Positions 8,472 through 21,858 of a stretch of 64,000 nucleotides of DNA are shown here, piece after piece. The position numbers were made by a program, and so were the translations under genes. Source of the stretch: Planctomycetota bacterium (lineage in GTDB: Bacteria > Planctomycetota > Phycisphaerae > Phycisphaerales > UBA1924); the NCBI GenBank assembly GCA_024280755.1, contig JAJRPN010000032.1, positions 1-64,000 of the forward strand, given 5' to 3'. The notes beneath the pieces were generated by a model. It ran no database searches, was not told the DNA's origin, and worked only from the letters and a program-made list of their open reading frames with translations. Every line of letters starts with the position of its first letter. Positions within the stretch are counted from its first letter, which is position 1.

Positions 8472-9725
8472 TCAAAGCCCAGCCGGGGCGTTAAGCGCGT
8501 CTGGGCCGAGCGTTTGAATCGTCGGCGTGCCCATCTCTCGGCGTTTGAGATACGAGTTCAACTCATCAAGCCCAACGCTATTGACCTTGTCAATAATCTC
8601 ATCAAGCGTACGCGTCCGACCAAGGTTCAGATAATCCGCCGCAATCGCCGACGCACGCGCCCCGGTCGATTCGCCCGCAAAGATCACTCGGCTCTTAAGC
8701 CCGGTCTTGGCACGCACCAACTCTTCTTCTGTGACATTGCCCTCACCAATCCGTTGAATCTCGCTGATCAAAACATCGAGCGATTCCTGCGCCCGCTCGG
8801 GCGTCGTGCCCACATAGTTTGAAACCACGCCTCGATCCTTGTCCGCACGCATCGATGCACTCACGGTATAGCACAACCCACGCTTCTCACGAACCTCCGT
8901 AAACAACCGCCCGGACATCCCGCCAGACAACACCGAGATCACCATCTTCTCAAGCATCGAATCGGCATGCCCCTCGTGAGGCGCATCATGCACAACCAAG
9001 ATCTGCACTTGGTTCGATTCATCTTCGATGTGTGCATACCCGCGAGCAGGATCACCTTTGGCTTCAGGCTGTTTCACGCTTCCAGACCAGTCGCAAGTGA
9101 GTGACTCGATCTGCTCGATCACCGCAGCAGGATCGAAATCACCCGCAACTGAGATCACCGAACCCGTTGGCTTGGCGTGATCTTTCCACCATGCACAGAG
9201 CGCATCATGCGTAAGCGATTCAACACCCGCGATCGTGCCCAATGTATCTCGGTTGTATGGTGTTGGCAGATGGCGCAGGCGAGCAGCAAGCGCGGTGCGT
9301 TGTTGCGGATCATCCGCGAGCGATTCAATCGCTTGCGATGCAAGCTCGCATGCCGGCCCAAACGAATCGCTCGCCATCATCGGATTCCGAATCATATCGA
9401 CAAGCATCGGAACCGCTTGATCAATCCGGCTACCGATCATCGAAGCCGAGAGTTGTGTGTACCGAATCGAGTTGCTCAAGTCGCGCAACGCACCGACATG
9501 ATCAAACGCATCCGCCTGTGCTTTGGAATCGAGCGAACCAGCGCCGCGCATCAACATCTCTGCGCACACACTCGAAGTCCCCAAATTGTGGATATCTTCA
9601 AACACCGCGCCCGCTGGCACAAGCCAACGCATCGCTGCAGATTGCACGCCGCTCATTGGCTCGGTAATGATCACCAAACCGTTTGTGCAAGTGTGTGTTT
9701 CGATTGTGTTGAGTGTGCTAGCCAT
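8472..9725 (-). CDS. M16 peptidase-family protein lacking the zinc motif
   Basis: 417 residues with the two-module M16 fold: N-terminal module with 'AGAVFEDIHNLGTSS', a middle 'WWKDHAKPTGSVISVAGDF' segment typical of M16 linkers, and a C-terminal module with 'GGMSGRLFTEVREKRGLCY', the R/Y substrate-binding motif. The catalytic HxxEH motif should fall near residues 53-57, but the sequence there is V-C-A-E-M: the glutamate remains and both zinc histidines are lost. By analogy with other inactive M16 partners it is probably the non-catalytic half of a two-protein processing peptidase, or a chaperone-like protein. No active partner is in the window. The start is supported by GAGGAG 7 bases upstream. 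Confidence 0.85.
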   Translation of the reverse strand: MASTLNTIETHTCTNGLVIITEPMSGVQSAAMRWLVPAGAVFEDIHNLGTSSVCAEMLMRGAGSLDSKAQADAFDHVGALRDLSNSIRYTQLSASMIGSRIDQAVPMLVDMIRNPMMASDSFGPACELASQAIESLADDPQQRTALAARLRHLPTPYNRDTLGTIAGVESLTHDALCAWWKDHAKPTGSVISVAGDFDPAAVIEQIESLTCDWSGSVKQPEAKGDPARGYAHIEDESNQVQILVVHDAPHEGHADSMLEKMVISVLSGGMSGRLFTEVREKRGLCYTVSASMRADKDRGVVSNYVGTTPERAQESLDVLISEIQRIGEGNVTEEELVRAKTGLKSRVIFAGESTGARASAIAADYLNLGRTRTLDEIIDKVNSVGLDELNSYLKRREMGTPTIQTLGPDALNAPAGL

Positions 9726-10275
9726 GAAAACTCCTCGATGAACGATTCAAATACGATCAATATGAAACACGAACACCGATGCGTTCGCATGGGTGATTGT
9801 TCGCATCGTTTGTGTAAAAAACCGCTGATGAGCACAAAGAAGTAGAAACCATCTTGCACGATTCTGGTGTGATCATGGTGCGATCATGGTACGAACTGCA
9901 TCGAATTGCACACGAAGTCGTCTTTGCATGCTTTTTTGTTATTCAGGGTGATGCGCAACCCACTCAATCACAACACTCGCCGATCAAATCAACTCTTCAT
10001 CCCCAAACCACACCACACCCACTCTTCGCACACTCGATAACAAACACATCTCCGATGTGTTGATGCGCATGAATCACAACGCAAATACGAACTGCACACT
10101 CGTGTTTGTGCGCACAACAAGTGCGCTACAACACGATCATTGAACTGCATGTACCTCGTTGTGCGCGCACAAACCAACGGAAGTGTTTATGCGCGCGCAC
10201 GATGCGTTGTATTGATGTATGCTGATGATCACACGAAGAAATGCGCAAGGTTCGCGCACTTCTTCAAGGAATCAC

Positions 10276-10299
10276 ACACAACACACCGATGTGTTGTGT
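10276..10299. repeat. Perfect 10-bp-stem hairpin
   Basis: ACACAACACA, loop CCGA, then its exact complement TGTGTTGTGT. It is not followed by a T run, so it is not a standard terminator. It ends 7 bases before a TTGACA box and could be a regulator site for the downstream histone-like gene. Confidence 0.7.
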
Positions 10300-10306
10300 A
10301 GATAGG

Positions 10307-10335
10307 TTGACAAGCGTTTGTAGTTGACCGATATT
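10307..10335 (+). promoter_or_regulatory. Probable sigma-70-type promoter of the histone-like gene
   Basis: TTGACA at 10307-10312, a 17-base spacer, then GATATT at 10330-10335 (four of six bases match TATAAT). Transcription would start near 10342, giving a leader of about 64 bases that carries a 7-bp hairpin (CGCTTCA, AAG, TGAAGCG at 10350-10366) and then GAGGAG before the ATG at 10406. Confidence 0.5.
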
Positions 10336-10405
10336 TATCGTGAACAAACCGCTTCAAAGTGAAGCGACACGATGAAGCAACACGGAACCAACGAGGAGCC
10401 TTACA

Positions 10406-10840
10406 ATGGCGAAGAAAAAAGCAAAGAAAAAAGTAGCCAAAAAAGCTACGCGTAAAAAAACCGCAAAGAAAAAAGCAACCAAGAAAAAGGTAGCCAAGAA
10501 GGCAACCAAGAAGAAAGCGACAAAGAAAAAAGCAACCAAAAAGAAGGTAGCCAAGAAGGCGACCCGCAAGAAGACCGCCAAGAAGAAGGCGACGAAGAAA
10601 AAAGCGACAAAGAAAAAAACCACTAAAAAGAAGGCCACAAAGAAAAAAGTAGCCAAGAAGAAGACTACGAAGAAAAAGACTACGAAAAAGAAGGCAACCA
10701 AGAAAAAGGTAGCTAAAAAGGCCACAAAGAAGAAGGCCACCAAGAAAAAAGCCACTAAAAAGAAGGCTACAAAGAAGAAAGCTACGAAAAAGAAAGCCAC
10801 CAAGAAAAAAGCGACCCGTAGAAAAGCCACTCGCCGATAA
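10406..10840 (+). CDS. Histone H1-like Lys/Ala/Thr repeat protein
   Basis: 144 residues built from only six amino acids (M, A, K, T, V, R), arranged as near-perfect repeats of KKAT/KKKAT and VAKK. A larger unit containing VAKKATRKKTAKKK occurs twice, a sign of expansion by duplication. The composition matches the lysine-rich tails of histone H1 and bacterial H1-like proteins such as chlamydial Hc1/Hc2, which bind and compact DNA without a fixed fold. It lacks a folded domain, so it is the tail alone. GAGGAG stands 9 bases before the ATG. A strong terminator follows at 10905. The palindrome-rich gap upstream suggests tight control. DNA binding is inferred from charge, not shown. Confidence 0.8.
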   Translation: MAKKKAKKKVAKKATRKKTAKKKATKKKVAKKATKKKATKKKATKKKVAKKATRKKTAKKKATKKKATKKKTTKKKATKKKVAKKKTTKKKTTKKKATKKKVAKKATKKKATKKKATKKKATKKKATKKKATKKKATRRKATRR

Positions 10841-21846: not shown

Positions 21847-21858
21847 TTGTGCGCACAA
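21847..21858. promoter_or_regulatory. 12-base palindrome TTGTGCGCACAA
   Basis: Identical to 10106-10117. It lies between the ABC ATPase stop (21865) and the ATG of the Q/R-rich protein (21836). A binding site for a dimeric regulator is possible; no regulator is known. Confidence 0.35.

Follow-up and report, generated by a model that had tools for sequence, protein, structure and literature searches.

A putative alternative-sigma promoter ahead of a lysine-rich, histone-like gene in Phycisphaerales

The lysine-rich, histone H1-like gene of a 3.02-Mb Phycisphaerales MAG is preceded by a bipartite element, TTCAAG-N17-CCGATG, which lies at positions 10263-10291 of the window (the whole 64,000-nucleotide stretch of DNA analysed here), inside a cluster of palindromes, and ends 114 bp upstream of the gene. 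The downstream end of this cluster is probably an alternative-sigma control region of the lysine-rich gene, which would share a regulon with fliM and a gene for a PD40/TolB-like lipoprotein, and comparison of the sequences points to a sigma factor of the FliA/WhiG class as the likeliest to act there. The first-pass annotation of this DNA had proposed a multi-site regulatory region. The outline of this proposal holds, with the bipartite element, and not the palindromes as such, as the key site.

The bipartite element and its target genes

The palindrome cluster sits inside a 680-nt gap between two divergent genes, an M16 (pitrilysin-family) peptidase gene on the minus strand (8472-9725; Pfam PF05193 and PF00675) and the lysine-rich gene on the plus strand (10406-10840), which encodes a protein of 144 aa with MAKKKAKKKVAKKATRKK repeats. 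The ribosome-binding region of the latter reads CGAGGAGCC (10392-10400, plus strand), with the consensus ACCAACGAGGAG in alignment A1. The protein carries short Lys/Ala-rich repeats, as does chlamydial Hc2 (HctB). Pfam gave no match for it at thresholds up to E=10, a test weakened by its low complexity. Across genera, the length of the gene product varies between 17 aa and well over 100 aa. Repeat expansion appears to account for this, and the MAKK start and the promoter are kept; in one congener (L031) the lysine-rich start continues into a non-repetitive domain. The genes mnmE and yidC adjoin the gap region, which had prompted the idea of a replication origin, but DnaA-box-like sites numbered 18 against 22 expected and no GC-skew switch was seen there, and the idea was dropped.

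We located the gap in relatives, all of them represented by incomplete MAGs, via the peptidase gene. Searching 21 genomes of the genus yielded 19 loci with good peptidase matches, all of which contained the divergent pair, with gaps of 495-706 nt (in L023 the peptidase start is uncertain and the gap possibly cut). The element, termed P2, consists of a putative -35 element TTCAAG (10263-10268) and a putative -10 element CCGATG (10286-10291), both on the plus strand, and transcription would be expected to start at about 10298. YTCAAG-N17-CCGATG is kept in 15 of the 19 congeners. The -10 element reads CCGATG in 18 of them and TCGATG in one, and the spacing to the -35 element is 17 nt in 19/19; the loci L020-L023 carry a degenerate -35 element (TTTGAA, TTGTAG or TTGATG) together with CCGATG in three cases and TCGATG in one. 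At 13 lysine-rich loci from other genera, [CT]TCAAG-N17-CCGAT[AG] was the single common feature, again with 17 nt in 13/13. Eleven of these match YTCAAG/CCGATR exactly, and L044 and L063 deviate by one mismatch each. Since the spacing is fixed while the sequence of the spacer varies, we infer that the element is a promoter rather than a hairpin.

A putative upstream promoter-like element, P1, has the sequence GCGCAC-N17-TATGCT (10195-10223, plus strand) with a TG before its -10 hexamer (TG-TATGCT, 10216-10223). Positions T25, A26 and T30 of the hexamer are invariant in all 19 congeners in alignment A4, and GCGCA occupies the -35 position in 13. Downstream of P2, a sigma-70-like sequence, P3 (TTGACA-N17-GATATT, 10307-10335, plus strand), corresponds to the promoter that had been annotated at 10307. 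It is limited to one lineage, being kept in 10/19 congeners (L014-L023) and absent from the remaining nine (L024-L032).

CTCAAG-N17-CCGATA had 107 matches in 81 genomes of the family, compared with 11 for the reversed control. Pooling spacers of 15-19 nt gave 188 versus 77 control matches, but the spacings of 15, 16, 18 and 19 nt alone accounted for 81 versus 66, and the excess is therefore specific to 17. As its target we took the ORF next downstream of each of 90 sites, comprising 89 of the 107 matches and one TTCAAG-N17-CCGATA site of the window's genome. Thirty sites preceded lysine-rich MAKK genes encoding 17-138 aa, 26 preceded PD40 genes whose products form one family of lipoprotein-like proteins, and 15 preceded genes for FliM; 14 led to unrelated ORFs and five to no ORF. 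Pfam searches with one representative each gave E=4.1e-66 for FliM and E=5.5e-42 for PD40. In L229, a CTCAAG-N17-CCGATA site lies upstream of a gene that was read by eye as encoding a ParA/Soj-like ATPase. Within the genus, N17-CCGATA stands at a fixed place at fliM in 20 of 21 genomes, with L250 as the exception, and is combined with ATCAAG as -35 element in 10/21, with GTGGAG in six and with other versions in four. A score of 11/12, as in the ten ATCAAG sites, was reached by 5 of 300 random 440-nt stretches of the window. In the window's genome, the element precedes the lysine-rich gene (TTCAAG/CCGATG), fliM (ATCAAG-N17-CCGATA) and the PD40 gene (TTCAAG/CCGATA); exact YTCAAG/CCGATR matches are rare there, four in all, two of them in or across ORFs. 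A promoter common to the lysine-rich, fliM and PD40 gene families is thus very probable, and its position ahead of all three would argue for an alternative sigma factor with a small regulon.

Candidate sigma factors

A single protein of the window's genome scores above the cut-off for FliA/WhiG sigma factors (TIGR02479, 236.7 bits, cut-off 189.6). Among NCBIfam models it matches WhiG best, under the cut-off of that model, and further sigma-like proteins of the genome score below the FliA cut-off. The gene of this FliA/WhiG sigma and the PD40 gene are about 3 kb apart in the window's genome (701-1630 and 4555-6342 of locus L234). The E. coli sigma-28 consensus is given as TAAAGTTT-n11-GCCGATAA in PMC2859248. 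Compared with GCCGATAA, the element of the family contains the core CCGATA, preceded mostly by T (in the window by A), and an A following CCGATA is common only in the PD40 promoters. FliA/WhiG is the best candidate because of this core of the sigma-28 -10 element, the fliM target and the single sigma factor above cut-off. We therefore lean slightly towards a FliA/WhiG factor as the one that reads P2, and hold with moderate confidence that the element works like a flagellar-type sigma regulon.

We did not file the element as a canonical sigma-28 promoter, for four reasons. The enriched motif has TCAA and not TAAA at the -35 position, and its spacing is two nucleotides longer than the 15 nt between TAAA and GCCGATAA of the canonical promoter. 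The canonical motif itself, TAAA-N15-GCCGATAA, showed no enrichment in the 81 genomes (four matches versus six for the control). Finally, the element was absent from the upstream regions of flagellin genes. Flagellin promoters, where GTCCnGATAA was seen instead, can thus not serve as proof of FliA. At the second flagellin gene (L124-L153), GTCCnGATAA recurs about 200-220 nt upstream of the start; it resembles the CCGATA element and is not identical to it. In common with FliA promoters of E. coli, the element has the -10 core CCGATA and targets a flagellar motor gene in organisms that encode a FliA/WhiG sigma, but it differs from them by its -35 sequence TCAA(G), its spacer extended by two, and the lack of flagellins among the observed targets. 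For WhiG of actinobacteria, PMC8325347 describes a promoter with TAAA and GCCGATAA and the anti-sigma factor RsiG; according to that source it is likewise a flagellar-clade sigma factor with targets beyond flagella.

The departures from the sigma-28 consensus in -35 sequence and spacing, the flagellins without the element and the unenriched canonical motif would fit a YTCAAG-N17-CCGATR that is read by a different sigma factor than FliA/WhiG or that serves as the bipartite site of a transcription factor, with a flagellar link through fliM only. The sigma-like proteins below the FliA cut-off would offer candidates in the window's genome. We regard this as a serious possibility but the less likely one: the -10 core CCGATA is that of sigma-28, fliM is a recurrent target, and only one protein of the genome exceeds the FliA/WhiG cut-off.

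In the main reading, YTCAAG-N17-CCGATR at 10263-10291 is taken as the core of the region, an alternative-sigma promoter that the single FliA/WhiG-type sigma of the genome would most likely read as a sigma-28 promoter variant of this lineage. Once this sigma factor is released, RNA polymerase would initiate near 10298 and the lysine-rich protein would be made, which, judged by its composition, may bind and compact DNA. To this promoter the genus would have added two co-varying inverted repeats, HP1 at about -48 and HP2 on the -10 element. HP1 could be the seat for a dimeric activator or an RNA hairpin; together, the two may modulate promoter activity or give rise to hairpins in RNA transcribed from the upstream TG-TATGCT.

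Hairpins, leader structure and the palindrome cluster

HP1 is an imperfect inverted repeat, GAAGAAATGCGC/GCGCACTTCTTC, at 10235-10265 on the plus strand. It lies upstream of the -35 element of P2, which its 3' arm overlaps, and is centred at 10250, which places it about 48 bp before the start expected for P2. HP2, ACACAACACA-CCGA-TGTGTTGTGT (10276-10299, plus strand), has 10-bp arms and the loop CCGA and is centred on the -10 element. HP3 is a leader hairpin, CGCTTCA-AAG-TGAAGCG (10350-10366, plus strand), with two-sided compensating changes in alignment A1. In a folding scan of 15 non-redundant congeners, 40-nt windows were positioned relative to the TATGCT hexamer. Shared structure was absent from the 200 nt upstream of the hexamer. 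At the HP1 position (+10 to +49), z was below -1 in 13/15 congeners, between +40 and +89 in 12/15 (HP2) and 11/15, and a weaker peak appeared at +110 to +189. When arms were swapped between species in 5000 permutations, the pairing of a hairpin's own arms was reached once for HP1 and never for HP2 or HP3. HP1, HP2 and HP3 appear to be under pairing constraint within the genus; the nearest relative, L015, has lost two pairs of HP2. Stems with compensating changes were thus found for two hairpins of the annotated cluster and one beyond its range, all of them within the genus only.

Neither HP1 nor HP2 is present at fliM, at the PD40 gene or at most lysine-rich promoters of other genera, where an inverted repeat occupies the HP1 position in 4/29 cases and the two HP2 positions in 13/29 and 5/29. 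Therefore, the hairpins are an addition of this genus. They may be read either as hairpins of a readthrough leader or as operator dyads, in both cases genus-specific. The sigma-28-dependent aer promoter of E. coli has an activator site with its centre at -49.5 (PMC2859248), which makes an activator dyad at HP1 possible. On the other hand, sequence changes in the outer HP1 arms and in the two arms of HP2 leave their pairing intact. This favours a folded strand, for which transcripts from TG-TATGCT would be the simplest source.

Taken further, such a transcript would fold HP1-HP3 into a structured 5' leader through which the histone-like mRNA would be regulated in its translation or stability, for instance by the lysine-rich protein in an autoregulatory loop. 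Consistent with this reading, the window leader (10226-10408) folds at z -5.3 relative to shuffles, structure peaks only after the TATGCT hexamer, two-sided changes occur in 8/28 predicted pairs (alignment A1), and the arm swaps favour the native arms. HP1 and most of HP2 would fall upstream of the P2 start. In two congeners, however, z is only -1.4 (L030) and -2.2 (L021), and RNAalifold on all 19 congeners keeps eight pairs, which form the HP1 core and one other short helix. When the alignment was fitted to the model, 243/500 shuffles reached its count of pairs changed on both sides and 1/500 its percentage paired. The covariance model R1 found only the window copy at a low E-value in the window's genome (4.7e-18; next 0.56); outside the genus, its hits formed a weak series (L044 4e-6, L071 0.013). 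By eye, AGYCGAT/ATCGGYT and GCTTC/GAAGC-type helices overlap at 10307-10366 and in L017-L021, so two leader folds there would be mutually exclusive. Known mRNA leaders of the riboswitch or ribosomal-protein-leader kind likewise place co-varying hairpins ahead of a single gene; the hairpins described here differ in being limited to a genus, in overlapping a promoter and in lacking an Rfam match. A search of Rfam 15 at the gathering score returned no match in the gap and only a tRNA elsewhere in the window, and the lax threshold added two chance-level miRNA rows, so no known RNA family was recognized. The structured small RNA that had been suggested likewise found no support, as there is neither an Rfam family nor a following plus-strand terminator in the gap. 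A leader RNA was abandoned as the sole explanation in view of the fixed 17-nt spacing and the common targets, and given that the hairpins are genus-specific whereas the element is family-wide, we consider it quite unlikely.

The remaining members of the cluster lie further upstream, at 9779-9790, 9870-9886, 10043-10061 (8-bp arms), 10106-10117, 10159-10172 and 10190-10199. The palindromes and hairpins annotated in 9778-10299 are present in the sequence, some of them in imperfect form. Compared with 200 dinucleotide shuffles of 9778-10299, arms of at least 5 bp were seen eight times (mean 5.2; matched by 30/200 shuffles), of at least 6 bp four times (mean 1.7; 17/200) and of at least 7 bp three times (mean 0.5; 4/200), and 4.4% of the 522-nt stretches along the window are equally palindrome-rich. 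The cluster is thus a modest excess that barely exceeds chance, due to its longest members. The earlier statement that no T run follows holds for the plus strand, on which no intrinsic terminator (a stem and then a T run) was called anywhere in the gap; on the minus strand, three weak terminator-like calls fall in the cluster and a fourth overlaps one of them. The palindromes had also been described as not shared with dispersed repeats. This fails for 10106-10117, whose word TTGTGCGCACAA has 18 exact copies in the 3.02-Mb genome and 60 sites with at most one mismatch, compared with 13 for the reversed word. One of the other copies lies at 21847-21858 of the window, and 14/17 are within reading frames of at least 290 aa, which indicates a genomic word bias. 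Despite its over-representation, TTGTGCGCACAA was therefore discarded as a regulon site. In the closest relative, whose gap is 93% identical, the palindromes at 10043-10061 and 10190-10199 are disrupted. Among all palindromes annotated, 10235-10265 and 10276-10299 are the only two for which the genus shows a counterpart at the same place with the pairing retained; for those in 9778-10199 there is no demonstrated conserved function. That the whole cluster is base-composition noise of a long TG/CA-rich gap would suit this upstream part, with its weak excess, its common word and its palindromes without conserved folding, but not the conserved and co-varying stretch 10235-10299, and is very improbable.

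On the peptidase side of the gap, a phased CGAW/TGAT array extends over 9859-9916, with starts at 9859, 9870, 9881, 9892, 9902 and 9913 and hence steps of 11, 11, 11, 10 and 11 nt. Near relatives carry runs of 3-8 such motifs. Runs of CGAW with 10-11-nt spacing were reached by at most 1/100 shuffles in 9/15 congeners and were not significant in 6/15. The array is a possible operator of the peptidase side.

Comparison with the chlamydial sigma-28 regulon

Chlamydiae and Planctomycetes are related members of the PVC group. In C. trachomatis, knockdown of sigma-28 is reported to cause a significant drop only for tsp and for hctB, which encodes the histone-like protein Hc2 (PMC10597470). A ChIP-based study lends support to these two targets as well (PMC12282069). 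PMC10597470 raises the question of what makes a genome of such reduced size retain a sigma factor for hctB and tsp alone. The same source states that environmental Chlamydiae lack sigma-28, which according to PMC10448858 is found in Sororchlamydiaceae and all Chlamydiaceae. The regulon proposed here resembles that of C. trachomatis in having a FliA-family sigma, very few targets and one histone-like gene among them. It differs in that flagellin and fliM are present and fliM is a co-target, in the spacer of 17, in a sigma factor assigned by inference, and in its other target, a PD40 lipoprotein gene in place of tsp. A literature search, mainly outside subscription papers, did not find the element or a link between sigma-28 and histone-like genes described in Planctomycetes.

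The element shared by the histone-like gene and a flagellar motor gene suggests that DNA packing is tied to flagellar-type control in a Chlamydia-like manner. A FliA-like element on a planctomycete histone-like gene could reflect either convergence or an old link. More speculatively, and on balance unlikely, a FliA/WhiG-class sigma factor may have controlled a histone-like gene since before the parasitism of Chlamydia, with Phycisphaerales coupling fliM and compaction and with sigma-28/hctB as the remnant of such a system. In free-living, flagellated Phycisphaerales, this coupling would perhaps belong to a dispersal (swarmer) cell.

Taken together, sequence alone defines a probable family-wide promoter class in which the spacing is fixed and the main targets are three genes. 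Should FliA/WhiG be the sigma factor, this class would be a free-living counterpart to the puzzling two-gene sigma-28 regulon of Chlamydia, and joint switching of DNA compaction and motility in Planctomycetes becomes testable.
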